Shown in pieces: positions 17,098 through 34,300 of a stretch of 64,000 nt of DNA; position 1 is the stretch's first letter; every line of letters starts with the position of its first letter. The position numbers and the translations under genes were made by a program. The stretch comes from an uncultured Pelagibacteraceae bacterium (GTDB taxonomy: Bacteria; Pseudomonadota; Alphaproteobacteria; Pelagibacterales; Pelagibacteraceae). The notes beneath the pieces were generated by a model. That model saw only the letters and a list, made by a program, of their open reading frames with translations, did not search any database and was not told where the DNA came from. The stretch lies in the NCBI GenBank assembly GCA_902570785.1, contig CACFZK010000001.1, positions 62,001 through 126,000 on the forward strand, written 5' to 3'.

Positions 17098-17967
17098 ATG
17101 AAAATAAAATTAGCACTTGAGTGGTTTATAAATCCTGATCACCTACCCTTTATTGTGGGTCTGGATAAAGGTTTATATAAAAAAAATAATATCGATTTAC
17201 AAATTATTGAGCCTGAAGGACATTATGATGGTTTTAAAGAACTTGCGAAAAATAATATTCAATTAGCAACTAATGAGCCTCTACACTTAATTGAAAAATA
17301 TCAAAATAATATTTGCTCAATTGGAAACTTTTTTGAAACTAATGGAGGTATTATATTTACCGCTAAAGGATATGAAAATTTAGTTAATGGAAAAGAAACT
17401 AAAATTACTTCACCGGTAAGTAATCCTGTTACAGATAAAATAGCTAATGATATTATTCAAAGACATTTGAAAAAAATTAATAAAACCAACAATGAGATAA
17501 AGATTGTAGCTAATGATTTTTATCATATTAAACATCTAAAGGCTGGATTTGATGCTGCATGGTTATGTTTTGAAAACTTTGAGGGTGTTGAGTCAAAATT
17601 AGAAGGTTTGGATGTAAAAAAATTGTATTTAGAAGATGTTGAAATACCTAATTTTTGTGCACTAGACGTATTTGCTTCAAAATCTTTTGCTAGTGCTAAT
17701 AAGAATTTGGTAAATGACTTTAAATCTATGACACAGCAAAGTATCAAAATTTTAAGTTCAGACTTAGATTATTCTAAATCTTCTTATTATTCTTATACTA
17801 AAACAAAGCCTAGTCCATTAATGGATAATATTATTAAAGATACAATTCATAGATTTAAAAATCCTTTTGATAAATCTAAAAATAAGTGGAAAAATTTGCA
17901 TAATTACGTAGTTACACAAAAAATTTCAAATATATCTGATGATCAATACTCAGATATGTTTATTTAA
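17098..17967 (+). CDS. THI5/NMT1-like protein, thiamin-pyrimidine related, no signal peptide
   Basis: A 289-residue NMT1/THI5-like domain with periplasmic-binding-protein fold: ALEWFINPDHLPFIVGLDKGLYKKNNIDL resembles the W-N-P-H start of ThiY and yeast Thi5, given here only as family pattern. It begins MKIKLALEW with no signal peptide or lipobox, so it should be cytoplasmic, and no ABC transporter genes adjoin it. H63 aligns with the histidine that yeast Thi5 consumes to make HMP-P. The partner PLP lysine aligns with Asn59, and the Cys-rich iron motif is reduced to one Cys (NFCALDV). Control by the TPP riboswitch ties it to thiamin. It could be an HMP-forming enzyme, a pyrimidine-binding protein or a salvage factor. 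Confidence 0.8.
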   Translation: MKIKLALEWFINPDHLPFIVGLDKGLYKKNNIDLQIIEPEGHYDGFKELAKNNIQLATNEPLHLIEKYQNNICSIGNFFETNGGIIFTAKGYENLVNGKETKITSPVSNPVTDKIANDIIQRHLKKINKTNNEIKIVANDFYHIKHLKAGFDAAWLCFENFEGVESKLEGLDVKKLYLEDVEIPNFCALDVFASKSFASANKNLVNDFKSMTQQSIKILSSDLDYSKSSYYSYTKTKPSPLMDNIIKDTIHRFKNPFDKSKNKWKNLHNYVVTQKISNISDDQYSDMFI

Positions 17968-19108
17968 TTGGAGACTTGCCAATTAAATGAAGATTTACAA
18001 CTGATGCTGCTATATCAGTGGATCTATCAGTCCTAAATTTATTTATTACACTTTGAGTTTTGGTAATTTGGTTTTCTAAATGTTGTTTATTATTTAAAAG
18101 ATGATTAACTGTATTAAAAATATTGTTTGCATTACAATTTGATTGCAATAATTCCGGAATAATTTCTTCATTAGCTGCAATATTAATTAAATTTGCAAAT
18201 TTTACTTTTACGAGCATTTTAATAATAAAGAAATTAATAAAACCCATCTTATATATTATTATTGAAGGAATTTTTGCTTTACAAATCTCCAAAGAAATTG
18301 TGCCAGATTTAGCCACTGCAAACATCGAAGAGTCTAAAATATGAGATTTAATTTTTTCATCACCTATTGCCCCACAATTTTTTAGACCCTCTTTTAATAG
18401 CAAATTTTGGATTAACTGAACATGTTCTGTGGTAGAATGAAAAACAAAAAATAATTCTTTATATTTTTCATTCATCTTTTTGACAAAATCAATTAATATT
18501 GGTGTCAAAACATTAATCTCCGACAATCTACTTCCTGGAAAAATAGAAAAGATTTTCTTATTTTCTTTTATAATTTGGCTTATATCAATTTTATTTTTTT
18601 CTTCTTTTTCAAGCAAAGGATGGCCAGTCACAGTAGATGGAATTTCTTCTTTATCAAAATATTGTTTTTCAAAGGGAAATAATAATAAAACATGATCTAA
18701 AAAAGATTTAAGCTGCTTTACTCTATATTCTCTCCAAACCCAAACTTGTGGTGCTACAAAATGAATTGTTTTTATACTTGGAACTTTTTTTTTAACTTGT
18801 TTTGCTACACGTAACGTAAAATCGGGACTATCAACTGAAAAAAGAATATCTGGTTTAAATTTAATAATTTCTTTTACTGTTTCATTTATTTTGCTCTTTA
18901 ATTTGAAAATATTTAACAAAACTCTCGTAAATCCAAGATATGTAATCTCTTTTAAATCATAAAGTGATTTAATACCTAAAGCATTTAAATGTTCTCCACC
19001 AACAGATAAATATTCTATATCTGATCTTGAGTTTTTAAGTTTAGAAATAACCTTTGAGGCTAATTTATCTCCAGAAGGCTCACCAGTTAGTATAAATATT
19101 TTTTTCAT
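17960..19108 (-). CDS. lpxB: Lipid-A-disaccharide synthase
   Basis: GT19 glycosyltransferase joining UDP-2,3-diacylglucosamine and lipid X. Motifs: FILTGEPSGDKLASKVI at the start, FSVDSPDFTLRVAKQVK, HFVAPQVWVWREYRVK, LLFPFEKQYF, TGHPLLE, SIFPGSRLSEI and AVAKSGTISLEICKAKIPSIIIY. Length 382 is normal. It is the last gene of the long rpsB-lpxB unit; its start overlaps the msrA stop by four bases and its stop overlaps the convergent THI5-like gene. Confidence 0.97.
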   Translation of the reverse strand: MKKIFILTGEPSGDKLASKVISKLKNSRSDIEYLSVGGEHLNALGIKSLYDLKEITYLGFTRVLLNIFKLKSKINETVKEIIKFKPDILFSVDSPDFTLRVAKQVKKKVPSIKTIHFVAPQVWVWREYRVKQLKSFLDHVLLLFPFEKQYFDKEEIPSTVTGHPLLEKEEKNKIDISQIIKENKKIFSIFPGSRLSEINVLTPILIDFVKKMNEKYKELFFVFHSTTEHVQLIQNLLLKEGLKNCGAIGDEKIKSHILDSSMFAVAKSGTISLEICKAKIPSIIIYKMGFINFFIIKMLVKVKFANLINIAANEEIIPELLQSNCNANNIFNTVNHLLNNKQHLENQITKTQSVINKFRTDRSTDIAASVVNLHLIGKSPIK

Positions 19109-19677
19109 CCCCAGATTTTATTTAATGTTTTTTCTCTTTGGCAACCTTTTTTGTACATCAAGTATCTTATAAAATTTTTCTCATAATAGTCTTGATGGTA
19201 AGTCTCAGCTATATAAAATTCCTTGAATTTTTTTACATAAGTAACAACTTTTTTATTAAACTTATTTTCAATTTTTTTAATTGAACCTTCTACAATTTTT
19301 TTTTGATCACTGTCTTTAAAAAAAACTACAGACTTATAACTTTCACCTTTATCACAAAATTGTCCATCTGCATCAAAGGGGTCAACGTTAATCCAATAAA
19401 TTTCTAAAAGCTTTTTAAAGTTTGTAATTGATGAATCGTAAGTAATTTCTAAAGTTTCATAGTGGCCAGTAGTATTTTTAACAACATCTTCGTATTTAGG
19501 ATTTTTTACATGTCCACCAGAATATCCAGAGATAGTTTTTATCACACCATCAACCTTGTCAAATGACTCTTCCATACACCAAAAACAACCTCCAGCAAAA
19601 TAAACTTTTGATATATTTTCTGCATTTAAATTTGCCGGTAATAATAAAAAAAAAATTATTAATAAAGCTTTTTTCAT
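19105..19677 (-). CDS. msrA: Peptide-methionine (S)-S-oxide reductase, exported
   Basis: Repairs oxidised methionine; catalytic Cys in AGGCFWCMEESF, followed by GVIKTISGYSGGH and, later, FYIAETYHQDYYEKN. The start at 19677 (MKKALLII...) is preferred over the in-frame ATG at 19692. It overlaps the upstream stop as ATGA and exposes a clean signal peptide (about 19 residues, ending ANLNA before ENISK). Export implies a periplasmic role. It is inserted with the sugar-dehydrogenase gene between lpxB and lpxI. Confidence 0.94.
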   Translation of the reverse strand: MKKALLIIFFLLLPANLNAENISKVYFAGGCFWCMEESFDKVDGVIKTISGYSGGHVKNPKYEDVVKNTTGHYETLEITYDSSITNFKKLLEIYWINVDPFDADGQFCDKGESYKSVVFFKDSDQKKIVEGSIKKIENKFNKKVVTYVKKFKEFYIAETYHQDYYEKNFIRYLMYKKGCQREKTLNKIWG

Positions 19678-20735
19678 TTGTACATTTTCCAAAGTTCTCC
19701 ATAATCAGATAGCATATATAATTCACCTGTATCTTTATGTATTTTGATATCTCTTATTCTTCCAATATTCCCTTTAAAAATTATTTGTTCACTTATAAAT
19801 TCATTGTCTTTAAATTTGATTTTTCTTAATGACTGGTCTTTTAGCGAGGTAATTAAAGCATCTCCGTTCCACTCTTTGAATGCATCACCTTGATATATGG
19901 CCATCGCACTTACAGCTATCGATGGAACCCAATACTTTATTGCTTTTGTGAAACCTGGTTTCCATTTCGGCCCAATTTTGGTTCCTGTATAATTTGTTCC
20001 TCCCCAACCTAAAATTTTCCAACCATAATTTTCAGCATAATTTACTGTACCAAACCAATCACCACCTTTAGCACCATGATTTGTCATATAAATTTTATTA
20101 TCAAATGGGGATAATGACATTCCCTGAGGATTTCTTACTCCAATTTGAAAAATTTCAGGTAACCATTTTTTTTTATTTTTAAACTTAGGATTATCTTTAG
20201 GGATAGATCCATCTAAGTTTATTCTGATTATACTACCCGGGTGTTTTGTGAAATCTTGAGCAATCATTCCCTGTCCTCTTTCACCAGCAGAAATATATAA
20301 ATGATCATCTTTTTTTACTAGTCTTGAACCAAAATGATATCCAGAGTCGATCGCTGGTTCAGCTCTAAAAATATTATTAAATTTAATAGAGTTCTTATCA
20401 AATTCACCTTTTGCAACAGAGGTGCTTGTTTTACGACCCTTTCTTTTTTCAGAATAAGATACATAAACATTTTTATTATCATACAGAACATCGAGAAGAC
20501 CTCCCTGGCCATCCTCAAGAACAGATAAATTATGTTTAATTTCAGATATTATTTGATTTTTTAAATCTAAATGAAAAAGCTTACCTTTTTTTTCAGTATA
20601 AATAATACTGGTATCATTAATAAATGATAAACTCCAGGGCTTGTTCATGCCTTCAACAATCTTTTCCAATTTAACTTCTAACCCAAATAAATTTGAAAAC
20701 CAAAAAAAATATATAATTAATATTATTTTTTTCAT
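19674..20735 (-). CDS. PQQ-dependent aldose (glucose/sorbosone-type) sugar dehydrogenase, periplasmic
   Basis: Six-bladed beta-propeller dehydrogenase of the YliI/soluble glucose dehydrogenase family, 353 residues with an N-terminal signal peptide (MKKIILIIYFFWFSNLFG). Family features: IVEGMNKPWSLSFIND, GGLLDVLYDN, HFGSRLVKKDDHLYIS, GERGQGMIAQD, IIRINLDGSIPKDNP, GVRNPQGMSLSP and MTNHGAKGGDWFG. It probably oxidises an aldose at the outer face of the inner membrane. The cofactor PQQ cannot be confirmed from this window, and substrate is unknown. Overlaps of four bases on both sides place it in the lpx operon. Confidence 0.85.
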   Translation of the reverse strand: MKKIILIIYFFWFSNLFGLEVKLEKIVEGMNKPWSLSFINDTSIIYTEKKGKLFHLDLKNQIISEIKHNLSVLEDGQGGLLDVLYDNKNVYVSYSEKRKGRKTSTSVAKGEFDKNSIKFNNIFRAEPAIDSGYHFGSRLVKKDDHLYISAGERGQGMIAQDFTKHPGSIIRINLDGSIPKDNPKFKNKKKWLPEIFQIGVRNPQGMSLSPFDNKIYMTNHGAKGGDWFGTVNYAENYGWKILGWGGTNYTGTKIGPKWKPGFTKAIKYWVPSIAVSAMAIYQGDAFKEWNGDALITSLKDQSLRKIKFKDNEFISEQIIFKGNIGRIRDIKIHKDTGELYMLSDYGELWKMYK

Positions 20736-21526
20736 TTTGATATAAGAAACATTTTATTTTTATTTGCAAAATTAATACATTTTTTTTTCTCAAGTAAAAT
20801 GTTGTTTTTACTTTTAAGAACTATCCCTTTTAAACCAGCTACTTTACATTGAATAAAAGTTTTTAATCCAACAGTAGGTAAATCGATTCTTAAATCTTGT
20901 TTCTTTTTTGGGAATTTGACTAGTACACCTTCCTTTTTAAATATTTTACCTTTGCACTTACTAAGCATTTTTTGGGTTCCACCTTTACCCTCAATAGCTA
21001 TTACTTTGTCATTTCTTACTACAGTACCTTGGCTAAAATTATATTGATTTAATCTATTGAGTGTTTTGATGGCTTTACTAATATCTTTATTATCATCTTT
21101 GGTTGGCTTGGTTTTAGTATAGTTTCCTTTATTTAAAGAAAGTTCGGGGTTAAATGTTATTGAACTGATAGTTTTAATTTTTTCTTTATTCAATATTTTA
21201 ATTATTTCTTTTAATATTGACGCATCTCCATGTTTAGAACTTTTTATTATTCTGGGCATATAATAAATACCTTTTAGATCTAATCTTAACTTTGAAAAAT
21301 TCGGTTTTTTGACGCTACCAGCAAAAAGAACTTTCTTACAATAATTTTCTCTTAGGATATTAATAATCTTGCCAAACTGTCCTATTGATACCGGAAACGA
21401 ATTTTTCTCTTTCTTAAAAAATTTTTTTTTGGTTAAATCAATAATTAAATATTTTATTTTCTTTTTTTTAACTTTTTTTAAGATTTCTTTTGGAAGTGAT
21501 GTTTCTCCAAATATTAAACCAATCAT
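20732..21526 (-). CDS. lpxI: UDP-2,3-diacylglucosamine diphosphatase LpxI
   Basis: Cleaves UDP-2,3-diacylglucosamine to lipid X; the alphaproteobacterial replacement for LpxH. It has the DUF1009/LpxI pattern: VLFAGSVKKPNF, SSKHGDASILKEI, SQGTVVRNDKVIAIEGKGGT and the C-terminal QDLRIDLPTVGLKT, whose Asp is the expected metal/catalytic residue. Lysine-rich, 264 residues. It shares one base with the lpxA stop, the usual lpxA-lpxI neighbourhood. Confidence 0.93.
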   Translation of the reverse strand: MIGLIFGETSLPKEILKKVKKKKIKYLIIDLTKKKFFKKEKNSFPVSIGQFGKIINILRENYCKKVLFAGSVKKPNFSKLRLDLKGIYYMPRIIKSSKHGDASILKEIIKILNKEKIKTISSITFNPELSLNKGNYTKTKPTKDDNKDISKAIKTLNRLNQYNFSQGTVVRNDKVIAIEGKGGTQKMLSKCKGKIFKKEGVLVKFPKKKQDLRIDLPTVGLKTFIQCKVAGLKGIVLKSKNNILLEKKKCINFANKNKMFLISK

Positions 21527-22308
21527 TATTCAGATAATGGCGAGCAAATAGGTCTCTTTTTATCCTTTTCAATAAATTTAGTGACCTCTTGTACTAATTC
21601 ATTTTGTTTAAATTCACCATTAATTTTACTGAGATTATCATGAAGATTATTTGAAGAAAATATTTTTTTATATGCCCTATCTAATTCAATTATTTTTTTG
21701 TTATCATATTTTTTTCTTCGTAATCCTACTAAATTTATACCTTTTAAATAGTTTCTATTACCAAATGAAAGGCCAAAAGGAATGACGTCTTTTAAGACTC
21801 CAGTCATACCGCCGATCATGGCTAATCTTCCAATTCTGGTAAATTGTTGTACTGCTGAGTTGCCTCCTATAATAACAGAATCTTCTATTGTTACATGTCC
21901 TCCTAATGGAACATTGTTAGCAATAATCACATTATTTCCTATGTTACAATCATGAGCTATATGGGATGAAATCATAAACAAACAATTATTTCCTATAACT
22001 GTTTTGCCCCCACCACCTGCGGTGCCAGGATTAATTGTTACGTATTCTCTAATTGTATTATATTCGCCTATATCTAAACTGTTTTTTTCACCTTTAAATT
22101 TTAGATCTTGTGGAGATGTCCCAATACTTGAAAAGGGATAAAGTTTTGTAAACTTGCCTATTTTTGTATTACCTTCAATATGAACATTTGAAATTAGTTC
22201 AACCCCCTCTTTTAAATGAACATTTTCTCCAACAAAACAAAATGGACCAATTTTAACATTATTTTCTACTTTTGCTTTAGGGTCTATTACGCTTGATTTG
22301 TGTATCAT
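21526..22308 (-). CDS. lpxA: Acyl-ACP-UDP-N-acetylglucosamine O-acyltransferase
   Basis: First step of lipid A synthesis. Left-handed beta-helix hexapeptide repeats run from MIHKSSVIDPKAKV through NNVKIGPFCFVGENV to about residue 190. The active-site His is in ISSHIAHDCNIGNN, and RIGRLAMIGGMTGV and YLKGINLVGLRRK are typical. At 260 residues it is full length. ATG overlaps the fabZ stop as ATGA. Confidence 0.97.
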   Translation of the reverse strand: MIHKSSVIDPKAKVENNVKIGPFCFVGENVHLKEGVELISNVHIEGNTKIGKFTKLYPFSSIGTSPQDLKFKGEKNSLDIGEYNTIREYVTINPGTAGGGGKTVIGNNCLFMISSHIAHDCNIGNNVIIANNVPLGGHVTIEDSVIIGGNSAVQQFTRIGRLAMIGGMTGVLKDVIPFGLSFGNRNYLKGINLVGLRRKKYDNKKIIELDRAYKKIFSSNNLHDNLSKINGEFKQNELVQEVTKFIEKDKKRPICSPLSE

Positions 22309-22757
22309 TTGTTTCTATCAACTATTGTTGCTGACCATTCTGCATCAGCCATTTTTTTTCCATTAACCTTAGCAACACCTTTGTACTTCCAAACTCTTCC
22401 ATGAGACCTGACTGCTTCTATATCCAAATGTAATTCGCAATCAGGCATTACAGGGTTTCTGAAACGTGCTTTTTCAACACTCATTAGATAAACTAATTTA
22501 TCCTTATATTCTTTTGGATCAATACCGTGAGCTGTAAGCGCAGCAGCTGCTTGGCCGAAAGCTTCTACAATTAAAACACCAGGCATAACAGGTTGGCCTG
22601 GGAAGTGTCCATCAAAAAAAAATTTTCCTTTTTTAACTATAACTATTGCGGTTGCTGATTTTAATGGAACTATATCAATTAATCTATCAATTAAAAGCAT
22701 TGGTTCTCTGTGTGGTAAAAGCTTTTCGATTTGTTCTTTATTAATACTATTTGTCAT
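22305..22757 (-). CDS. fabZ: 3-hydroxyacyl-ACP dehydratase FabZ
   Basis: Dehydrates 3-hydroxyacyl-ACP in fatty-acid elongation and competes with LpxA/LpxD for hydroxyacyl-ACP. Hot-dog fold, 150 residues: LLPHREPMLLIDRL, the catalytic His and neighbours in FFDGHFPGQPVMPGVLIVEAFGQ (Glu near the end), and VEKARFRNPVMPDCEL. It sits between lpxD and lpxA as in most proteobacteria and overlaps lpxD by 11 bases. Confidence 0.97.
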   Translation of the reverse strand: MTNSINKEQIEKLLPHREPMLLIDRLIDIVPLKSATAIVIVKKGKFFFDGHFPGQPVMPGVLIVEAFGQAAAALTAHGIDPKEYKDKLVYLMSVEKARFRNPVMPDCELHLDIEAVRSHGRVWKYKGVAKVNGKKMADAEWSATIVDRNK

Positions 22758-23727
22758 TTTTCCTTTTTAAAAAATCTTTTAAAGGCATAGCGGGATAACC
22801 CATAACCGTTATCCCATTTGGTATATTTTTAACAACTCCGCTTCCACCACCAATTTTAACATTGTTTCCTATTTTTAAATGCCCAGAGATCCCAGCTTGT
22901 CCTCCTATTGAAACATTATTACCAATAGATGTGCTTCCAGCAAAACCAACTTGCCCTGCAATCATACAATTTTCACCTATTTTAACGTTGTGAGCCATAT
23001 GTACCTGGTTATCTAAAAACGAATTTGTACCAATTACTGTATCGCCAATAGATCCTCTATCTATCGTGCAGTTTGCGCCTATCTCAACATTGTCATTAAT
23101 AATAACTCTTCCTATATGTGGGAATCTAAAATTTTTACCTTTGAATGGTATAAAACCAAAACCTTTAATACCAATTTTTGAACCATCTTGAATCACTACA
23201 TCACTTCCAATTAAAGAATTTCTTAAAGTTACATTTGAACCAATTATACAATTTTTACCTATTTGAACATCGTGTTCAATTGTTGTGTTACTACTTATAA
23301 AGGTGTTAGAACCTATTTTAACATTTTTTCCAATAAAATTATTCTTACCAAATGTGACAGAGTCATATTCGTTTGATAATTTACTAGATTCTACCAAGGT
23401 TTTGTCAGGATAATCAATATCTGCATTTGGATAAAACATTTTAGATACTTGTGCAATAGTAAATAAAACATTTTTAACAACTATCGTAACACATTCTTTT
23501 GGTAAAAAACTTTTCAAATTGTTTGTTGTTAAACAGACAGAAGCTTTAGTTTTTTTTGCTAAATCAATATAATCAGGTGAATTCAAAAAAGTTATATTAT
23601 TTTTTTCAGCTTTATCTAAAGTTTTAACATCTGTTATTAAAATATCCTTTTTTTGCACACTGAGTTCCTTTGATAATTTACTTAAATTATAAGGACCTTT
23701 TGGAACGAAAAAAGATATATCTGACAT
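22747..23727 (-). CDS. lpxD: UDP-3-O-(3-hydroxyacyl)glucosamine N-acyltransferase
   Basis: Third lipid A step. An N-terminal uridine-binding domain (about 1-110) is followed by hexapeptide beta-helix repeats (about 125-300, e.g. IGKNVKIGSNTFISSN). Active-site His is in NQVHMAHNVKIGENC, with FAGSTSIGNNVSIGGQAGISG following and a C-terminal helix (GYPAMPLKDFLKRK). Length 326 is slightly short but complete. It follows skp/ompH by six bases. Confidence 0.96.
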   Translation of the reverse strand: MSDISFFVPKGPYNLSKLSKELSVQKKDILITDVKTLDKAEKNNITFLNSPDYIDLAKKTKASVCLTTNNLKSFLPKECVTIVVKNVLFTIAQVSKMFYPNADIDYPDKTLVESSKLSNEYDSVTFGKNNFIGKNVKIGSNTFISSNTTIEHDVQIGKNCIIGSNVTLRNSLIGSDVVIQDGSKIGIKGFGFIPFKGKNFRFPHIGRVIINDNVEIGANCTIDRGSIGDTVIGTNSFLDNQVHMAHNVKIGENCMIAGQVGFAGSTSIGNNVSIGGQAGISGHLKIGNNVKIGGGSGVVKNIPNGITVMGYPAMPLKDFLKRKNDK

Positions 23728-23733
23728 TAAAAC

Positions 23734-24255
23734 TTAGTTTAAATCAATTGATTTTAGTTCTTTATCTAATAATTTCAAAATTTTTTCAGTTAAATCAAAT
23801 TTGGAATTTGCTAAAAGAATATTTTTTTTATCTACTATCATTTCTATATTATTTTCATTCATATATTTTTGTAAAATTGGATTTAAGGTTTTAATAAGTT
23901 TGGCTCTAGCTTCATTCTTTTTGTTTAGCCACACGTTAGATGCATTACGTCTTTTTTTTTGATAATTAATATTTTTTTCTCTTAATAGATTAAGTTTTTT
24001 TTTGTAGTCCTCGTTGGAGATAAGTTTTTTTTTTGAAATTAAATCAGACTCTTCTTTTTTAAGAGAAACAGACTCTTTTTTTAACTTTTCATTTTCGTCA
24101 TCAAACTTTTTCTTCAAAAAAGTTTGTGCTTTTTTTCCTGCTTTGCTGTTATTTAATATGTGTTTTATATCAACAAAATATACATCTGATGCTACAGCTT
24201 GGTTAAAAAAACCAAAGGTGAATATAATAATAAATAATATTTTTATAACTTTCAT
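23734..24255 (-). CDS. skp: Skp/OmpH-like periplasmic chaperone
   Basis: A 173-residue Skp-family chaperone for unfolded outer-membrane proteins. Signal peptide at about 1-22 (MKVIKILFIIIFTFGFFNQAVA), then VYFVDIKHILNNSKAGKKAQ, the typical start of mature OmpH. A long lysine/glutamate-rich coiled coil (about 45-125) and a C-terminal beta segment with NENNIEMIVDKKNILLA follow. It is adjacent to bamA (one-base gap) and lpxD, the universal context of this family. Confidence 0.92.
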   Translation of the reverse strand: MKVIKILFIIIFTFGFFNQAVASDVYFVDIKHILNNSKAGKKAQTFLKKKFDDENEKLKKESVSLKKEESDLISKKKLISNEDYKKKLNLLREKNINYQKKRRNASNVWLNKKNEARAKLIKTLNPILQKYMNENNIEMIVDKKNILLANSKFDLTEKILKLLDKELKSIDLN

Positions 24256-24256
24256 A

Positions 24257-26506
24257 TTAAAATGATGTTCCTATTTGAAATTTAAATTGCTGGGTTTTAT
24301 CACTTTCTGCTGAGGATAGATCTTGAGCAAAAACAAAGTTTAATGGGCCGATTGGGGTATATATATTAGTTGCTACACCTACAGCTGACCTTATAGTGCT
24401 TGATTGTCCAATTTTAGAATCATAATCAACATGCCATAGGTTTCCTACATCTAAAAAAGCTGCTACATCTGTTTGTGTGGCATCAGGTAATAAATTTGGT
24501 AGTGCTGCCTCAAAATTCATTGCTAATGCATAATTACCACCTATATAGTCTCCAGAGTCTACTGGTCCAATTTTTCTATTTTCAAAACCTCTTAATCTTT
24601 TTGCAGGAATGTGTATTCGTTTACTTAATCTAACATCATCTTCGACAGCTACGATTCCAGCTGCATAAAATTTAAAAGCTCCTAAGACATTTTCATTAAA
24701 ACTATGATATTTGCTTAGAGTAAATCTATTAAATACAGATGAGTTTTCCTCAACATATAAGGGAAATTTTTGTGCAAATCCAATAATTGATCCACTTGTA
24801 GGCATAAATCTTCTATCCCTTGTGTCTTTTTCGACTCCATATCCAAAGGATAAGTCTGTAAACGTCCCGGCTTGTTTCTTAAGACGTTCAGAAGCTGTTC
24901 CATCAACCGTCATATCATCAAATGATAATTCAAGACTCGGTGATAAAAAAATATCATCGTACTGCTCAAATCTAGTCCCAATATTTAATTGTGTTAAGGT
25001 ATTTTCATATCCAGAATTTGGTCTATCTGTCTTTTTACTTGCGAGACCATACTCAAGAGAGTTTCCCGAAAAATTATAGTTTGGATTTATAATTGATATT
25101 CCTCCCCTTAAAGCACTTTCAGAAGCTTCTATAGAGGTATCAACAATAAGTCCTTTACCTAAGTAATTATTTTCTGTTAAAGAAAAAGACACTGTTGTTC
25201 CGTCTGTACCGGTTCCTGCACCAGCAGCAATTTCACCTGTTGGCATTTCCTCCACTATTATATCCATAACCTTTACATTATTTGATGAACCATCAGATAC
25301 TTTGTAATTTACTTTTTTAAAAATATTTTTTGATCTTAATTTTGATATAGATTTGTCAAGTTTAATTTTACTGAAGGGATCCCCCTCATCTAAAATTAAT
25401 TCTGATCTTATGACTGAGTCATTTGTTACAGTATTTCCCTGAATATTAATTCTTTCTACGATTACTTTAGGACCTTCGAAAATTTTGAATTCTAAGTCAA
25501 CAAAGTTTCCATCAATAGTTTCTGACACCGAATGAGTTACAAATTGAAGTTCATTATCATCTATCAGTTCATCAATACTTTCAAGTATTTTTGTTATCTT
25601 AAAGGGTGAATAATATGTTCCTGCAAACTTTTTAAAGTCTTTCTCTAAAATTTTGAAAATCTTTTTATCAAAAACAGGATCTATATCAGTTGAGATTTTT
25701 TTAATTCGGTATCTTTTGCCAGCATTTATATTGAATGTAAGTTCAATACCTTCTTTATCTTTAACAAACACATTACTTGATAAAATTTCAGCATCATAAT
25801 AACCTTTGCTTAAGTAATAATTTTTAAGAAGTCTTTTATCTAACTCAATTCTTTGATTATTTAAATAAATATTTCGCGAGATAAATTTCCAAAACTTGGC
25901 TTCTTCAGTTGCGATTACATCTCTGAGTCTTTTTGTTTTAATTTTTTTTTCTCCTATAAAGAAGATTTTAGTAATCTTTTCTCTTTTTCCTTTATCTATA
26001 ACAAATATTAAATCTAATAGATTATTACCGCCTTTTACTTCAGCAGTTCTAGCTTCTACGTTGGTGGAATAATAACCCAACTGATTATAAAACTCTTTGA
26101 TTATCTCAACATCTTTTTTAACATCATTTTTAATAAAAGAAGATTTTTCTTTTAATGTCATAAAATTTAAAAGAGCTTTTGTGAATTTTTTAGTCGGCTC
26201 ACCCTGTAATGTTATAGAATTAATAATGGGGTTTTCTTCAACATCTATACTTAAAATACCATTTGAAAAATTAATTGATATTTTTGAAAAAAATTTAGTG
26301 TCGTATAAATTCTTAATAATATTGTTAATTTCTTCTTGTGTGTAATCTTTATTTTTTTCAATTTCACCGTAAACAATTAGTGTTTCGTCTGAAATTCTTT
26401 CATTACCCGATATTACAATCTTATTAAGTTTTTCAGCTTTTAGTGTTGATGTGAAAAATGTGAAAATCAATAAAACTATATAAAAGATATTAAATATTTT
26501 TTTCAT
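24257..26506 (-). CDS. bamA: Outer-membrane protein assembly factor BamA
   Basis: Central Omp85 insertase of the outer membrane. Signal peptide of about 24 residues (ending STLKA before EKLNKI), several POTRA domains over about residues 25-400 (e.g. RINIQGNTVTNDSVIRSELIL in the last one), and a C-terminal beta-barrel. The conserved loop-6 motif appears as KRLRGF, and the chain ends in phenylalanine (QFKFQIGTSF), the barrel recognition signal. Its start lies 17 bases inside dxr, so rseP, which commonly separates them, is missing. Confidence 0.97.
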   Translation of the reverse strand: MKKIFNIFYIVLLIFTFFTSTLKAEKLNKIVISGNERISDETLIVYGEIEKNKDYTQEEINNIIKNLYDTKFFSKISINFSNGILSIDVEENPIINSITLQGEPTKKFTKALLNFMTLKEKSSFIKNDVKKDVEIIKEFYNQLGYYSTNVEARTAEVKGGNNLLDLIFVIDKGKREKITKIFFIGEKKIKTKRLRDVIATEEAKFWKFISRNIYLNNQRIELDKRLLKNYYLSKGYYDAEILSSNVFVKDKEGIELTFNINAGKRYRIKKISTDIDPVFDKKIFKILEKDFKKFAGTYYSPFKITKILESIDELIDDNELQFVTHSVSETIDGNFVDLEFKIFEGPKVIVERINIQGNTVTNDSVIRSELILDEGDPFSKIKLDKSISKLRSKNIFKKVNYKVSDGSSNNVKVMDIIVEEMPTGEIAAGAGTGTDGTTVSFSLTENNYLGKGLIVDTSIEASESALRGGISIINPNYNFSGNSLEYGLASKKTDRPNSGYENTLTQLNIGTRFEQYDDIFLSPSLELSFDDMTVDGTASERLKKQAGTFTDLSFGYGVEKDTRDRRFMPTSGSIIGFAQKFPLYVEENSSVFNRFTLSKYHSFNENVLGAFKFYAAGIVAVEDDVRLSKRIHIPAKRLRGFENRKIGPVDSGDYIGGNYALAMNFEAALPNLLPDATQTDVAAFLDVGNLWHVDYDSKIGQSSTIRSAVGVATNIYTPIGPLNFVFAQDLSSAESDKTQQFKFQIGTSF

Positions 26507-27674
26507 AATTTTTTGATATAATTTCTAGAGTTTTTTTTCGTGCCCAATTATCAATTTTATAAATTTCATTTATATTAGGTACCTTTTTTACAGCATATTT
26601 ATTGAAATCTCTATCCTTAAAAACTCTTTTTAAAGTCTCATAGATTCCATTATAGGGTATTTTATTTTTTACAAAACTATCAACTAAAATTTCATTGCTA
26701 GCATTGAGAATAATCGGACCTGATTTTGATAAATATTTATCCTTATTTAAGGTAACAATTGGAAATCTTTTTTTATCAACTTTTTCAAATTCAATATTTT
26801 TAAGTTTACCTAAAAAATTATTATTTTTTTTAATAATTTTATCAATATTAATTTTATTATTATATATAGCGTTTGATATTGGGATTTTCATATCTGTATC
26901 ATGATATAGAAATTTAATCTGTCCATTTTTAAAAATAACGATTGCATGTATTAAAGATTGTGGGTGAACAATAATTTCATATTTATTTGGATTAAATGAG
27001 AATAGCCTGTGAGCCTCAACTAGTTCTAATATTTTATTCATAAGATTAGATGAATCTACTGAGATTTTTTTTCCCATATTCCAGGTTGGGTGTTTATAGG
27101 CGTCTGTAGGTTTAATTTTTTTAAATGAACTAATAGGTTTTTTTAAAAAAGGGCCACCTGAAGCTGTTATATAAATTTTTTTAATATCTATGTCTCTATA
27201 ATCTTTCGTTAATTGTTTAATTGAAAAATGCTCAGAATCTATTGGGACCAATTTAGTTTTGCTTCTTTTAATTATTTTTGACAAAATATGCCAACCGCAA
27301 ATTATAGATTCTTTATTTGCTAAAAGTAGTTTTTTTGATTGTTTTGCAAATTGTATTGTAGGTTCTAGACCTGCTATTCCAACTATAGCAGCGATAGTAA
27401 TGTCAAACTTCAATTTGGATGGAACATTATCAAATTTGTTTAAAATTTTTGTCTTTGAGTTTTTAAATTTTCTTTTAACTTTATTATAAACAAAAAAATC
27501 TGTGACTATAAAGTACAATGGTCTATATAAGTTTATTTGATTGATAATTTCCCTAAAATTTGAGTTAGCTGAAAGTAGTATAATATTAAAACTTTTTTTA
27601 TCTAAATTAATAATTTGAAGAGAACTTTTGCCAATACTTCCTGTAGAACCTAAAATAGAAATTTTTTTTTTCAT
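26490..27674 (-). CDS. dxr: 1-deoxy-D-xylulose 5-phosphate reductoisomerase
   Basis: Makes 2-C-methyl-D-erythritol 4-phosphate in the MEP isoprenoid pathway. NADPH loop ILGSTGSIGKSSLQII at the N-terminus; LLANKESIICGW; metal-binding PIDSEHFSIKQ; TASGGPFLKKP; HPTWNMGKKISVDSSNLMNK; and EIIVHPQSLIHAIVIF. Length 394 is normal. The start overlaps the cdsA stop by four bases. Confidence 0.97.
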   Translation of the reverse strand: MKKKISILGSTGSIGKSSLQIINLDKKSFNIILLSANSNFREIINQINLYRPLYFIVTDFFVYNKVKRKFKNSKTKILNKFDNVPSKLKFDITIAAIVGIAGLEPTIQFAKQSKKLLLANKESIICGWHILSKIIKRSKTKLVPIDSEHFSIKQLTKDYRDIDIKKIYITASGGPFLKKPISSFKKIKPTDAYKHPTWNMGKKISVDSSNLMNKILELVEAHRLFSFNPNKYEIIVHPQSLIHAIVIFKNGQIKFLYHDTDMKIPISNAIYNNKINIDKIIKKNNNFLGKLKNIEFEKVDKKRFPIVTLNKDKYLSKSGPIILNASNEILVDSFVKNKIPYNGIYETLKRVFKDRDFNKYAVKKVPNINEIYKIDNWARKKTLEIISKNYEKNI

Positions 27675-28327
27675 GGAAATATTTTAAGAGTATACAAAAT
27701 GTAACCTAAAATAACTACAAACATTAAACCATCAATTCTATCAAAAATACCTCCGTGTCCAGGAAGTAACTTCCCAGTATCTTTAATTTTTTCTAATCTT
27801 TTAAAATAAGAAATAGTTAAGTCACCTAGTTGAGCTGCCACAGAAAAAATAATCGCTAATAAAAAGAATTTAGTTTTTAAGAAGAAATTATTATCAAAAC
27901 CAGTCATCAATTCCACAATTAAATCGATTACAAAAACAGAGAGTATAGAAAGTGTAAAAGACCCAACAACTCCTGCTATTGTCTTGTTGGGACTTATTTT
28001 TGATATTTTTTTTCCATTAAAAATCTTTCCAAAAACATACCCGCCAGTATCAGAAAATATTGTTAATATAATTATCCAAATTAATAAGAAAAAAGACGAA
28101 GCTGTATCATTTCTTAAAAATAAAAAAGCTAATAAAGATATAACTAAAATAACATCAATCAATATTATGGTTAGTTTTCTTTTAAAGACTGAAAAAACTT
28201 CGTAATTTCCTAATATTAAAATAGCATATAAGAATGACACAATATAATTGCCTCCTTTTAAAATAAAAAAAATTGATAAAGGAAATATTATTATAGATGT
28301 TAGTATTCTTTTTTTTAAATTATTCAT
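27671..28327 (-). CDS. cdsA: Phosphatidate cytidylyltransferase
   Basis: Forms CDP-diacylglycerol from phosphatidate and CTP. A polytopic membrane protein of 218 residues (shorter than the usual 260-285). The signature is near the C-terminus: LGDLTISYFKRLEKIKDTG followed by LLPGHGGIFDRIDGLMFV. Also present is the SDTGGYVFGKIFNGKK segment with the Asp pair region. N-terminal helices are fewer than in E. coli CdsA. Four-base overlaps on both sides show it is in the rpsB-lpxB unit. Confidence 0.95.
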   Translation of the reverse strand: MNNLKKRILTSIIIFPLSIFFILKGGNYIVSFLYAILILGNYEVFSVFKRKLTIILIDVILVISLLAFLFLRNDTASSFFLLIWIIILTIFSDTGGYVFGKIFNGKKISKISPNKTIAGVVGSFTLSILSVFVIDLIVELMTGFDNNFFLKTKFFLLAIIFSVAAQLGDLTISYFKRLEKIKDTGKLLPGHGGIFDRIDGLMFVVILGYILYTLKIFP

Positions 28328-29001
28328 ATTTTTCCAAAATTCCTTTTGACCTTTTTAAAACTATTTATAATTTTAATATAATCTGTGACTTTGAAGTCTG
28401 GCCATAACTTGTCAATAAAATATATTTCAGTATAAGCCATTTGCCAAAGTAAAAAATTACTTAATCTTTTTTTTCCACCTGTTCGTATTAAAATGTCAGG
28501 ATCTTTAGTATCTTTTGTATACAAATTGTTTTGAAGACTGTTAATACCTATTGGTAACTTCTTTTTCTGTACTTGTCTCACTGCATCAATAATTTCGTTT
28601 TTAGAACCGTAATTAATTGCCAAATTGACTAAAATTTTATTACATTTTTTTGTTTTTTTCATTGAGTTAATTAGTGTTAACCTAACATTTTTAGGAAGAT
28701 TTCTCATATTTCCAATTATATTAATTTTAATATTATTTTTGATTAGGTTATCAATTTCTTTATAAAAATAATAATTAATTAATTTAAAAAGGAAGGTAAT
28801 TTCTTTTTTAGGTCTTTTCCAATTTTCACTGGAAAAAGTGTAAAACGTTAAAGTAGGAACTTTAATTTTAATTGATGCTTTAACAATTTTTTCAATTATT
28901 TTAACTCCGTTTTGGTGACCAAAATTCCTATTTTTTCTTTTTTTTCTACCCCATCTACCATTACCATCCATGATAATAGCTATATGGTTAACTTTGTTCA
29001 T
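28324..29001 (-). CDS. uppS: Undecaprenyl diphosphate synthase
   Basis: cis-prenyltransferase supplying the C55 carrier for peptidoglycan and LPS. Motifs: AIIMDGNGRWGRKK with the catalytic Asp, GHQNGVKIIEKIV, FSSENWKRPKKE, NLAINYGSKNEI and the C-terminal DILIRTGGKKRLSNFLLWQ with AYTEIYFIDKLWPDF. A 225-residue enzyme. Coupled to frr and cdsA by four-base overlaps. Confidence 0.97.
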   Translation of the reverse strand: MNKVNHIAIIMDGNGRWGRKKRKNRNFGHQNGVKIIEKIVKASIKIKVPTLTFYTFSSENWKRPKKEITFLFKLINYYFYKEIDNLIKNNIKINIIGNMRNLPKNVRLTLINSMKKTKKCNKILVNLAINYGSKNEIIDAVRQVQKKKLPIGINSLQNNLYTKDTKDPDILIRTGGKKRLSNFLLWQMAYTEIYFIDKLWPDFKVTDYIKIINSFKKVKRNFGKI

Positions 29002-29555
29002 AAAGTTAAAATTTCTTTTTCTTTTTCTGACAAAATTTTTTCTATAAGAGAGATATTTTCATCGGTACTCTTTTGAACATCATTTTCAAAGTTTTTACTT
29101 TCGTCTTCCCCTATTTTTTTTTCTTTTAATAAATTTTTAATGTTATCGTTAGACTCTCTTCTTACGTTTCTTATCGAAACCTTAGCTTTTTCTCCCAAAT
29201 TTTTTAATACTTTTGTTAATTCTTTTCTCCTTTCCTCTGTAAGTTGGGGAATTCGAATTCTTAGAATTTGCCCATCAACTTGGGGATTGACTCCTAAATT
29301 TGATTTTTTAATTTCAGTGTCAACTAAATTGACATTATTTTTATCCCACACCTGTATTGAAATAGTTCTAGGCTCTGGGACAGTTACTGTAGCTAATTGG
29401 TTAATAGGCATCTTTTGTCCATAAACATCTATCCTTATTAAGTCCAACATGGCTGGATTTGCTCTACCGGTTCTTAATGTTGCAATATCTTTTTTATATG
29501 AAGAAATAGTTTTGCCCATTTTTATTGAAACCTCATTTTTATTAAATATTTCCAT
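28998..29555 (-). CDS. frr: Ribosome recycling factor
   Basis: Splits post-termination ribosomes together with EF-G. Length 185, with DIATLRTGRANPAMLDLI near the N-terminus, YGQKMPINQLATVTVPEPR in the beta domain, and the C-terminal helix with RRESNDNIKNLLKEKKIGEDE. It lies 4 bases after tsf; the UMP kinase gene pyrH, commonly between them, is not present. Confidence 0.98.
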   Translation of the reverse strand: MEIFNKNEVSIKMGKTISSYKKDIATLRTGRANPAMLDLIRIDVYGQKMPINQLATVTVPEPRTISIQVWDKNNVNLVDTEIKKSNLGVNPQVDGQILRIRIPQLTEERRKELTKVLKNLGEKAKVSIRNVRRESNDNIKNLLKEKKIGEDESKNFENDVQKSTDENISLIEKILSEKEKEILTL

Positions 29556-29559
29556 CTAT

Positions 29560-30423
29560 CTAAATTCCTTCTCCAACTTTAAATCTTACAAAATCAATAA
29601 CTTTGATTTCTCCATCATTTGAATATTGTTTCAAAAAACTACTAACTGTAATTTTAGTATCCATGATCCAGGTCTGATTAAGCAAAGTGTTTTCAGAAAT
29701 AAATTTTTTAATTTTACCATTAGCGATTTTTTCAATCATTTCAGATTTTTTACCACTATTTTTTAATTCTTCTTTAATAATTTCAAGTTCTTTCTTTAAA
29801 ATATCTTTATTAATTCCGTCATCGTTTATAGCAATTGGAGCTTGTGCTGCTATATGCATAGCAAGTTTATTTCCTACTTTATCTAGATTTTGATTATTAT
29901 CACTTGAAAGTTTTACTATAGAAATTACTTTTCCTATATTTTTTTCTGATGAATTGTGAACATAAAAAAAATTTTTACCATTATTATTAAAATATTTACT
30001 TCGCCTAATTGTTATTTTTTCACCAATTTTTGATATTAAGGTTATAAGATTTTCCTCTACTGTTTTATCATTATTCATTTTACTTTTATTTAATTTATCT
30101 AAATCAGCTTTATTAATAAAATTAATATTTGATATTTCTTTGCAAAAGGAGATAAAATCTTTGTTTTTTGCAACAAAGTCAGTTTCGCTATTAATTTCTA
30201 TTATTGAAATATTTCCATCTTTTTCGTTCACTAAAATAAGACCATCTGCAGCAACACGACTCATCTTTTTTGAAGCTTTTGCAATTCCCTTTTTTCTTAA
30301 ATATTCGATTGATTTTTCAATATCTCCATTTGTTTCTGTAATTGCTAATTTACAATCTGAAAATCCAACACCTGTAATCTCTCTTAGTTTTTTAATATTA
30401 TCTAAAATTTTTTTGTCTGACAT
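29560..30423 (-). CDS. tsf: Elongation factor Ts
   Basis: Nucleotide exchange factor for EF-Tu. N-terminal UBA-like domain (IKKLREITGVGFSDCKLAI), then KGIAKASKKMSRVAADG and INSETDFVAKNKDF, whose TDFVA motif contacts EF-Tu, and MHIAAQAPIAI in the core. Full length at 287. It follows rpsB after nine bases. Confidence 0.98.
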   Translation of the reverse strand: MSDKKILDNIKKLREITGVGFSDCKLAITETNGDIEKSIEYLRKKGIAKASKKMSRVAADGLILVNEKDGNISIIEINSETDFVAKNKDFISFCKEISNINFINKADLDKLNKSKMNNDKTVEENLITLISKIGEKITIRRSKYFNNNGKNFFYVHNSSEKNIGKVISIVKLSSDNNQNLDKVGNKLAMHIAAQAPIAINDDGINKDILKKELEIIKEELKNSGKKSEMIEKIANGKIKKFISENTLLNQTWIMDTKITVSSFLKQYSNDGEIKVIDFVRFKVGEGI

Positions 30424-30432
30424 TACTTTGGT

Positions 30433-31230
30433 TTATTTACCTAAAGTTTTTTTAGGTGTGTTACTATTTTTTTTGGATGGTTGTTCTTTTTTTTCTATTG
30501 TATTAGTTTTATTTTGAGCTTCATTGCTTATTTTATTTGTAACAATGTTTTTCTTTGCATCAATAATTGTTGATTTTAATAACTCACAGTAAAGATCAAT
30601 AGATCTTCTGGCATCATCGTTGCCTGGAATTGGATGGTTTATTCCTGTAGGATCAGAATTTGAGTCCAAAACTGCAACTATTGGTATTTTTAATTTAATC
30701 GCCTCTTTTATTGCTAAAGACTCCACATTAGTATCTATTACAAAAATCATTTCAGGAATTTTGTTCATATTTGAAATCCCCCCCAATGATCTATTTAATT
30801 TATCCTTCTCTTTTTCAAGTTTAAGTATTTCTTTTTTAGTAAATCCAATATCCTCTTTGGATAAATCTTTTTCTAGTTTTTTTAATCTTTTAATTGAATT
30901 TTGAATTGTTTGCCAATTAGTAAGCATGCCACCTAACCATCTATAATTAACATAAAACTGTTCAGTATCTTTTGCTAATTTAAGAACAGTTTCTGCAGCT
31001 TGTTTTTTAGTAGAGACAATTAAAAGCTTCCCACCTGTAGATATACATTTATGAACTTCTTTCATTGCATTTTTTATTAGAACAACAGTTTGGGTTAAAT
31101 CTATTATGTGAATTGAATTTTTCTCCCCATAAATGAACTGTTTCATTCTAGGATTCCATCTAAGGGTTTTGTGGCCGAGGTGAACACCAGCTTCTAATAA
31201 TTGTTTTATTGATACGTTAGGTATATTCAT
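30433..31230 (-). CDS. rpsB: 30S ribosomal protein S2
   Basis: The start is placed at 31230 (MNIPNVSIKQLLEAGVHLGH), the family's conserved beginning. The frame stays open a further 16 codons to 31278, but that stretch is the structured leader RNA and has no S2 similarity. Core motifs: RWNPRMKQFIYG, NYRWLGGMLTNWQTI and GNDDARRSIDLYC. The C-terminus carries a lysine/asparagine-rich extension of about 40 residues. First gene of the rpsB-lpxB unit. Confidence 0.97.
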   Translation of the reverse strand: MNIPNVSIKQLLEAGVHLGHKTLRWNPRMKQFIYGEKNSIHIIDLTQTVVLIKNAMKEVHKCISTGGKLLIVSTKKQAAETVLKLAKDTEQFYVNYRWLGGMLTNWQTIQNSIKRLKKLEKDLSKEDIGFTKKEILKLEKEKDKLNRSLGGISNMNKIPEMIFVIDTNVESLAIKEAIKLKIPIVAVLDSNSDPTGINHPIPGNDDARRSIDLYCELLKSTIIDAKKNIVTNKISNEAQNKTNTIEKKEQPSKKNSNTPKKTLGK

Positions 31231-31300
31231 AATTTTCCGGTTAAACCACCACAGCTTTCCTTTCGGACCGGTGGGCAATTGCCCTTTGCTGTGTGCGAAA
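31231..31300 (-). promoter_or_regulatory. Structured rpsB (S2) leader RNA
   Basis: A GC-richer island in a very AT-rich region. On the minus strand an outer stem pairs 31288-31293 (CACAGC) with 31250-31255 (GCUGUG). It encloses a hairpin GGGC-AAUU-GCCC (31284-31273) and a hairpin UCC-GAAA-GGA (31267-31258). CCGGU from the single-stranded segment at 31267-31271 can pair with ACCGG at 31237-31241, just before the rpsB ATG, making a pseudoknot over the ribosome-binding GGA. A structured leader before S2 was reported for Pelagibacter by comparative genomics (from memory). Autoregulation by S2 is the likely role. Confidence 0.75.
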
Positions 31301-31310
31301 TTAAATGTTT

Positions 31311-31337
31311 TTTATATTCTTTCTAATTGAAAATCAA
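31311..31337 (-). promoter_or_regulatory. Candidate promoter of the rpsB operon
   Basis: On the minus strand TTGATT (31337-31332) and TATAAA (31316-31311) are separated by 15 bases, a little short. Transcription would start near 31304, just upstream of the structured leader, which is the position expected for it. Confidence 0.4.
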
Positions 31338-31341
31338 GATG

Positions 31342-34300
31342 TTAAAAACTTATTTTTTTAATATATTCTTTATTTTTAAGAGCACTAAGCTTGCTTAAAT
31401 TAAATTTTCTACGATTTTTAAGTGAAAAAATATACATTTTTGAATTTCTATTAACTTTCAATTGAATTTTTGTTTCTCCATTATCGCTGAGTAAACTTTT
31501 TAGATCTTCCATATTGGTTTTTCCGTTTATTTCTATAGTTACATTGTCATACGATTTATTAATAAAGTCATTAATTGGTAATATATTTTTAATATTTATT
31601 CTTCTTGAATTTATAAGGTCTTTTGAACTGTCCTTTTGCAAAGTAATTAAAAATGAATTAGCGGTTTTTAATATTTCTCTATTAGCAATTAATAAATCAG
31701 AAAATAGAAATAACTCATATTCACTTTTTAAATCAGAAAATTTAATTATAGCAAATGGGGTTCCTTTCGCGCTTTTTTTCTCTTGAATAGACATGATAGT
31801 GCCAGCTACATATCCATTGGTTTCAGAGCTTTCAACATAATTTAAAAAAGATTTTATTTTAAATTCTCCAAAGTGATCTTTATAAACATTAAGTGGATGG
31901 TCAGACATATAAAATCCAATGGACTGAAATTCATTTAATAAAATATCTTTTTTTGAATCGTTTTCTTTATTTTCTATTTTAAATACAGTTTCATCGCTTT
32001 CTAGTTTATTAGAAAATAAACTAGTTTGATTACTGATTTTTTCTTCCCATAAAGTTTTGTTGAACTGAATAATTTTGGGTATAGCTTTTAATAATGACCC
32101 TCTATCACTAAACAACTCATCAAAAGCACCGGCTTTAACTAACCCTTCAAGTTGTAATTTATTGATATCTTTTGGATTAACCCTTTTTATAAAATCATTT
32201 ATTGTTTTAAATTTACCATTTTTTTTTCTTTCTTTTATAATATTTGAAACAGCCTCTTTGCCAACACTTTTTATAGCTGACAATGCATAATAGATTTTAC
32301 CTTTTTCTGATATAAAATCTGCATAAGATTTGTTTATTGATGGTCGAACTATTTCGATTTTAAGTCTTTTAAGTTCTTCTACAAATTCTCTTAATTTATC
32401 TGTATTTGATAATTCAGTAGACATAGTTGCTGCAATAAAATCTTCTGGATAATATTTTTTTAAATACGCAGTTTGGTAAGCTATTAAGGCATATGCGGCA
32501 GCGTGACTTTTGTTAAAACCGTATTCAGCAAATGGCTTAATTTTTTGAAATATAAATACCGCTATATCTTTACCTATACCATTTTTTGTAGCACCATTGA
32601 TAAATTTTTCTTCTTGTTTTTCTAATTCTTTCCTTTTTTTCTTTCCCATTGCTTTACGTAAAATATCAGCCTCTCCAGGAGAAAAATTTGCTAATTTTTG
32701 AGCTATTTGCATTACCTGCTCTTGATAAATAATTATACCATACGTTGGCTTTAAAATTTTTTCTAGACTCTCATGAATGTAATCAGGTTTTTTTAAACCA
32801 TTTTTACAATCATTGTAAATTGGAATATTATTCATAGGTCCTGGTCTATACAAGGCTACCAATGCTATTATATCTTCAAATTTATTTGGCCTCATTTGTT
32901 TTAAGGAAGATCTAACACCTGAGCTTTCAAGCTGAAAAAGTCCAGTGGTTTCTCCTGTTGAAAGCATTTCATAAACTTTACTATCTGTTAATGAAATTTT
33001 ACTTATATCTAAATCTATATTTTTACTTTTTAAAATTTTAATAGTTTTGCTAATCAGTGTTAATGTATTTAGTCCAAGTATGTCAAATTTAACTAAGCCA
33101 GCATTTTCTGAGGAGTGCATATCAAATTGTGTTGATGGTAAAAGTAGTTTTGAACTATTATCTCTGTACAGAGGAACTTCCTCAGATAGTTTCTCTCCTG
33201 TTATAACTACTCCTGCAGCATGAGTTGCAAGGTTTCTGTTGAGACCCTCAAGCTTTAATGAGAGTTCAATTAACTTTTTGACTTTAGGATTGTTTTTTTC
33301 TTCTTGTTTAAATCTTGGCTCTCGATCAATAGACTCCTGCAAACTTAATGGTCTGGATGGATCAAAAGGTATCATTTTACAAATTTTATCTACATGTCCA
33401 TAAGGTAAGCCTAATACCCTTCCAATATCTCTCAATGCCATTCTGGCTTTTAATTTACCAAATGTAATAATGTGAGCTACACCATTTTTGTACTTAGATT
33501 TTAGATAATTAAAAATTAAATCTCTTTTTTCTTCGCAAAAATCTATATCGAAGTCGGGCATTGATATCCTGTCTGGATTAAGGAATCTCTCAAAAATTAG
33601 ACCAAACTCTATTGGATCTAGGTCTGTGATATCTAAAGAATAAGCTACTAATGAACCAGCTCCAGATCCTCTTCCAGGACCTACGGGAATATCGTTTAAT
33701 TTTGCCCACTTAATATAGTCAGAAACAATTAAAAAATAACCTGAGTAATTCATTTTATGAATTATACTTAATTCATGTGATAACCTATCAAGATATTTTT
33801 TTTCGATTTTTTCTAAATTTGCTTGGTCTTTGTTTTTTAAAATAAAATTTTCTAATCTATTCTTTAAACCTTCGTTAGACAGAAATGTAAGTTCATCATT
33901 TTCGTTACGAGAGTTAGAAATTTTTATAGATGGTAGGATAGGTTTAGATTTTTTTACTTTAAAACTAAATCTGAAAGGAAAATTATAGTTATTTTCAAGG
34001 GCTTCTGGAATATCAGAATATAACTTGGTTATTTCCTCGTTGGGTCTGAAATAATGATTATCTGAATATTTTCTTCTATTGGTTTCATTGACATATGTCT
34101 TTTCACCAATACACAGTAATGCGTCATGAGCTTCGTACATATCTTTATTAATGTAAAAAACTTCTTGCGATGCAATAAGAGGGATATTTTCATTTTCAGA
34201 TAAATTTAAAAATATATCTTCTAACTTGGACTCGCCTTTGTCATTGTGTCTTTGAATTTCTAAATAAAAAGAGCTAGAAAAGTTTTTTTTTATAATTGAA

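Follow-up and report, generated by a model that had tools for sequence, protein, structure and literature searches.

A conserved rpsB leader of Pelagibacterales with a pseudoknot strand next to the translation start site

The stretch of Pelagibacteraceae DNA analysed here (64,000 nt; hereafter the window) carries on its minus strand the gene for ribosomal protein S2, rpsB, at the head of 15 co-oriented genes that extend to lpxB with gaps of -19 to +9 nt (Table 1). Such a run of some 15 genes had been proposed in an initial annotation made from the letters of the window, and it is borne out as a gene layout, all genes being co-oriented and no gap exceeding 9 nt. The gene order is largely kept in four complete genomes from three other genera, in which the run is devoid of the dehydrogenase and msrA genes, skp is undetectable in places and, in two genomes, fabZ precedes lpxD. 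Terminator- or promoter-like sites inside the run (17800-31500) are no more abundant than in shuffled sequences and so speak neither for nor against a long transcript; a single rpsB-lpxB transcript is plausible. The pyrH gene (UMP kinase), which usually lies between tsf and frr, is missing at the tsf-frr junction (29555-29560); the corresponding model, TIGR02075, scores above its cut-off in none of 78 genomes of the family, including single-contig genomes that are 99-100% complete, and its weak matches fall within ORFs (about 400 and 370 aa long) that probably encode aspartokinase and glutamate 5-kinase. A literature search on SAR11 pyrH returned nothing relevant. Similarly, rseP, usually found just before bamA, is absent from the run (dxr-bamA junction, 26490-26506) and in four relatives.

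Table 1. Features of the rpsB leader and of the downstream gene run, in window coordinates
Feature	Position	Strand	Basis or remark
Promoter-like TTGATT (31337-31332), 15-nt spacer, TATAAA (31316-31311)	31311..31337	-	consensus match only
P1 5' strand, CGC-A(bulge)-CACAGC	31297-31288	-	RF01815 alignment; six core pairs in 77/77 unique leaders, compensatory changes
Conserved bulged A in P1 5' strand	31294	-	
P2 hairpin, GGGC-AAUU-GCCC	31284-31273	-	fold; stem sequence changes among relatives
Pseudoknot 5' strand, CCGGU (J2-3)	31271-31267	-	compensatory partners in other Alphaproteobacteria and enterics
P3 hairpin, UCC-GAAA-GGA	31267-31258	-	fold; CC/GG core is the commonest P3 form
P1 3' strand, GCUGUG-GUG	31255-31247	-	parsed leaders of the order
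Pseudoknot 3' strand, ACCGG	31241-31237	-	6 nt before AUG at 31230
rpsB, ribosomal protein S2, 265 aa, ATG start	30433..31230	-	TIGR01011, 309 bits (cut-off 76)
tsf, frr, uppS, cdsA, dxr, bamA, skp/ompH, lpxD, fabZ, lpxA, lpxI	17960..30423 (with the next three genes)	-	
Glucose/sorbosone dehydrogenase, msrA, lpxB, closing the run	within 17960..30423	-	

The minus-strand sequence upstream of rpsB reads ...UUUCGCACACAGCAAAGGGCAAUUGCCCACCGGUCCGAAAGGAAAGCUGUGGUGGUUUAACCGGAAAAUU-AUG, and all the structural elements initially proposed for it were found there, namely an outer stem (P1), the two hairpins P2 and P3, and the CCGGU and ACCGG strands, which are exact complements. U31267 is common to the UCC hairpin and to CCGGU, so that with the pseudoknot closed P3 would consist of the CC/GG pairs and the GAAA loop. 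The interval originally regarded as structured (31231-31341) has to be shortened to 31231-31297; its remaining part, 31298-31341, is AU-rich and promoter-like, and the promoter-like stretch begins just past the dnaE stop codon. A TTG is placed 41-42 nt before P1 in 11 of the 13 unique leaders of the window's genus and 40-41 nt before it in 10 of 17 leaders from another genus of the family, often followed in these leaders by a TATA-like hexamer 14-17 nt after the TTG. In most leaders of the genus this -35/-10 pair keeps a near-fixed distance of about 41 nt from P1, which suggests that the leader is probably transcribed from a promoter of its own just past dnaE, starting shortly before P1. A PyrG_leader hit at 31330-31385, with 18 bits and an E-value of 5.6, is regarded as chance.

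The leader is an instance of the rpsB motif described from the dnaE-rpsB spacer of Candidatus Pelagibacter ubique, a motif which consists of P1, short P2 and P3 stems and a pseudoknot of J2-3 with the extension after P1 (Meyer et al. 2009, PMC2704228). The genes flanking the leader in the window, dnaE upstream and rpsB downstream, match that published setting, and the two RNAs share P1 with its three-stem junction, the short P2/P3 and the pseudoknot. The motif lies directly upstream of rpsB, which starts at 31230, as do all 90 leaders of the order; its P1 covaries and is capped by the P2/P3 junction, and J2-3 pairs with the 3' extension in the window as well as in 76 of the 77 unique leaders of the order. 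A leader motif before S2 in Pelagibacter had been correctly mentioned in the initial annotation, and the pseudoknot, offered there as the annotator's own reading, is not new, since it had already been reported together with P1, P2 and P3 (PMC2704228). On the other hand, P2 has four pairs in the window instead of the three reported for P. ubique, and the rpsB section of that paper is silent on the replacement of the Shine-Dalgarno sequence by the 3' strand in this order (PMC2704228). At permissive thresholds the Rfam model RF01815 ('rpsB') matches the leader with 30.9 bits (E 1.6e-4 for 301 bases) in an alignment that runs end to end (model 1-132, window 31297-31222). The gathering score of 40 bits is not reached in the window, and Rfam at that score gives zero matches there; t44 (RF00127) does not match the region up to E 10. 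In the RF01815 model P2 and P3 are longer than in the window leader, and the pseudoknot strand is followed by a separate AGGAG-like stretch that the window leader lacks. At E<=0.001 RF01815 matches 112 of 148 genomes of the window's family, 0 of the 148 reaching the gathering score, and 230 of 386 alphaproteobacterial genomes, 98 of them above the cut-off. The cut-off thereby excludes the whole family, and annotation pipelines relying on it will miss the leader. Relative to the published motif, three points are added here: the pseudoknot covaries among leaders collected independently of the Rfam model, the knot has shifted onto the start site across the order, and the Rfam cut-off hides the leader throughout the family.

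Seventeen genomes of the window's genus, among them that of the window itself, a further 58 genomes of the family and 15 of a sister family supplied the rpsB leaders on which conservation within the order was assessed; every leader carries the motif (75/75 in the window's family, 15/15 in the sister family). Leaders were parsed by choosing the best-pairing register among a few, which biases the P1 counts towards pairing; with this parse, 77/77 unique leaders have standard pairs at the six core positions of P1. All six positions show pair types changed on both sides, i.e. compensatory changes (for example A-U/G-C; C-G/G-C/A-U/U-A; G-C/A-U; U-A/C-G/A-U), the outermost and fourth core pairs varying in just one to three leaders, and the outer CGC/GUG pairing becomes AUC/GAU in the sister family. 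The bulged A is an A in all 77, the parse having required it. All five CCGGU/ACCGG pairs are kept in the 76 leaders mentioned above, and no covariation of the pseudoknot was detected among the 77 unique leaders. Strands so nearly invariant are uninformative on covariation within the order, where their conservation could reflect a sequence requirement.

Outside the order, the RF01815 model is biased towards CCGGU/ACCGG, and leaders were therefore gathered through the S2 protein instead: 40 alphaproteobacterial leaders were located by S2 protein search in genomes not listed among the RF01815 matches, and 38 of them carry the motif. The pseudoknot strands, picked by eye from the motif position and then checked for presence, are fully paired in 37 of these 38, as compared with a mean of 26.5 and a maximum of 32 when partners are shuffled. 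Variant pseudoknots occur in 16 leaders and are fully paired in 15 (shuffled mean 7.9, maximum 12); the shuffle test leaves relatedness in, and several variants recur across different families. Compensated forms in other Alphaproteobacteria include CUGGU/ACCAG, CCAGU/ACUGG, UCGGU/ACCGA and CCGAU/AUCGG, and the pseudoknot of E. coli and the sampled enterics is GGGGU/ACCCC. Both-side changes thus affect four of the five pairs, the U-A pair being invariant. It had been proposed that leaders of related genomes be aligned and that the pseudoknot be abandoned if its pairing were uncompensated or lost in close relatives; the alignments revealed compensatory changes of P1 inside the order and of the CCGGU/ACCGG pair outside it, and the pseudoknot survives with its pairing retained inside the order.

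The placement of the 3' pseudoknot strand relative to the start codon distinguishes the order from other bearers of the motif. Across the order, 5-10 nt separate this strand from the AUG in most leaders, which puts it in Shine-Dalgarno position; in the window's family the gap between ACCGG and the start is mostly 6-9 nt (range 5-12), and in the sister family ACCGGAG is found in 15/15 leaders with a similarly short gap. A separate Shine-Dalgarno core within the gap occurs in none of 70 family leaders outside one genus, which keeps AAAGGA. For comparison, 89 leaders outside the order, nearly all alphaproteobacterial with one from elsewhere in the phylum, were collected with RF01815; their median gap is 17 nt, and a Shine-Dalgarno core is found within it in 85 of the 89. 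The initial view of a pseudoknot on the ribosome-binding site fits this order but not the motif in general. In the window, the GG(A) of the ACCGG strand is the sole Shine-Dalgarno-like purine run near the rpsB start. Measured on the genes of the 64,000-nt window, Shine-Dalgarno use is weak, with a mean pairing energy of -1.2 against -0.6 in shuffled sequences and AGGA, GGAG or GAGG at -16 to -4 in 6 of 56 ORFs of at least 150 aa. Given the short spacing and the lack of a separate Shine-Dalgarno sequence, a closed pseudoknot would fall inside the 30S footprint; given the weak Shine-Dalgarno use, its likely effect would be to block that footprint rather than to hide a strong Shine-Dalgarno sequence.

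Repression of rpsB-tsf by S2 in E. coli acts through the 5' UTR, is assisted by S1 and has a mechanism reported as unclear; it lowers the expression of the downstream tsf via loss of coupling (reviewed in PMC10931766). The E. coli leader scores 83.5 bits with the t44 model (RF00127), which is filed apart from RF01815 in Rfam, and is annotated as 'putative small RNA T44'. It shares with the window leader a P1 with CAC-A at its base, a GGAGG junction after P1 and a five-pair pseudoknot, but differs in the pseudoknot sequence (GGGGU/ACCCC), in having a separate Shine-Dalgarno sequence and in its start codon, which follows the pseudoknot strand at a distance of more than 20 nt. By analogy with this system we infer feedback by S2 on rpsB also in the window, and we favour, with a probability of about 0.72, a cis-acting S2 autorepression leader that is ordinary in kind and has an order-specific start-site geometry. 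The RNA would probably start a few nucleotides before P1 and fold into P1, with its bulged A, P2 and P3, and the CCGGU of the P2-P3 junction could pair with the ACCGG that immediately precedes the AUG. S2 in excess, perhaps acting with S1, would bind to the pseudoknotted form and stabilise it; closed in this way, with its 3' strand in Shine-Dalgarno position, the RNA would directly bar 30S subunits from the start site, and rpsB would be repressed whenever S2 is in excess.

It is unlikely, though worth weighing, that S2 binds the leader without start-site occlusion, recruiting or trapping S1 or the 30S subunit while the pseudoknot merely builds the binding site. This would fit E. coli, in which the operator is reported to include neither the Shine-Dalgarno sequence nor the start codon and to require a conserved bulge far upstream (PMC10931766), as well as the 85/89 leaders outside the order with a separate Shine-Dalgarno sequence after the pseudoknot (median gap, 17 nt) and the bulged A, conserved here too in 77/77 leaders under a parse that required it. 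However, with a gap mostly of 5-10 nt and without a separate Shine-Dalgarno sequence, a closed knot would be inside the 30S footprint regardless of how S2 acts in the order of the window.

The remaining alternatives are far less probable. A constitutive structure, protecting the 5' end of a long mRNA or fixing its translation level without any S2 feedback, would suit an element that adjoins a promoter-like sequence where a long gene run begins, but a specific ligand is indicated by the invariant nucleotides, by the near-exclusive association of the motif with rpsB and by the way in which the E. coli counterpart responds to S2 (PMC2704228, PMC10931766), and we consider such a constitutive structure improbable. 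Transcription attenuation, by which the leader would halt RNA polymerase before rpsB under excess S2, has a precedent in the short rpsB-linked leader transcript of Bordetella pertussis, which was read as a sign that full-length transcription is inhibited (PMC3110155); a search for terminator-like sites in the leader of the window found none, none of its hairpins is followed by a U run, and we rate this explanation slightly lower still. Finally, single-sequence folding energies are just modestly better than those of shuffles (z of -1.7 and -2.1; 9 and 6 of 200 shuffles equally stable), so that folding alone is weak evidence for the leader structure and could be accommodated by a chance fold in AU-rich sequence. 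Nonetheless, the structure is more than chance, as indicated by the RF01815 match at the site and by the motif in every rpsB leader of the family, and the extensive covariation refutes a chance fold, whose probability we regard as negligible.

Returning to S2 autorepression, it is tempting to speculate, tentatively and with more doubt than for the autorepression itself, that an upstream operator accompanied by a separate Shine-Dalgarno sequence has given way in this order to a knot whose own strand is the start-site region, so that translation of rpsB would need the pseudoknot to be open and S2 would occlude the start site directly at the head of a transcript of 13-15 genes, among them isoprenoid, BamA and lipid A genes. 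As suggested in the initial annotation, S2 feedback might conceivably also reach these distal envelope genes, if an effect like that on tsf extended to bamA or lpxB, 5-13 kb downstream. With S2 repression unsettled in E. coli, the pseudoknot strand on the start site could provide here a simpler natural version in which to test occlusion.

The P1-pseudoknot junction contains a GGUGG/GGAGG run (31246-31250), shared by most family leaders and by the enterics, which resembles a Shine-Dalgarno sequence and lies about 16-20 nt from the AUG in the window, too distant for a normal one. The E. coli 'small RNA T44/tff', for its part, is located in the 5' UTR of rpsB and represents this S2 leader in its gammaproteobacterial form.
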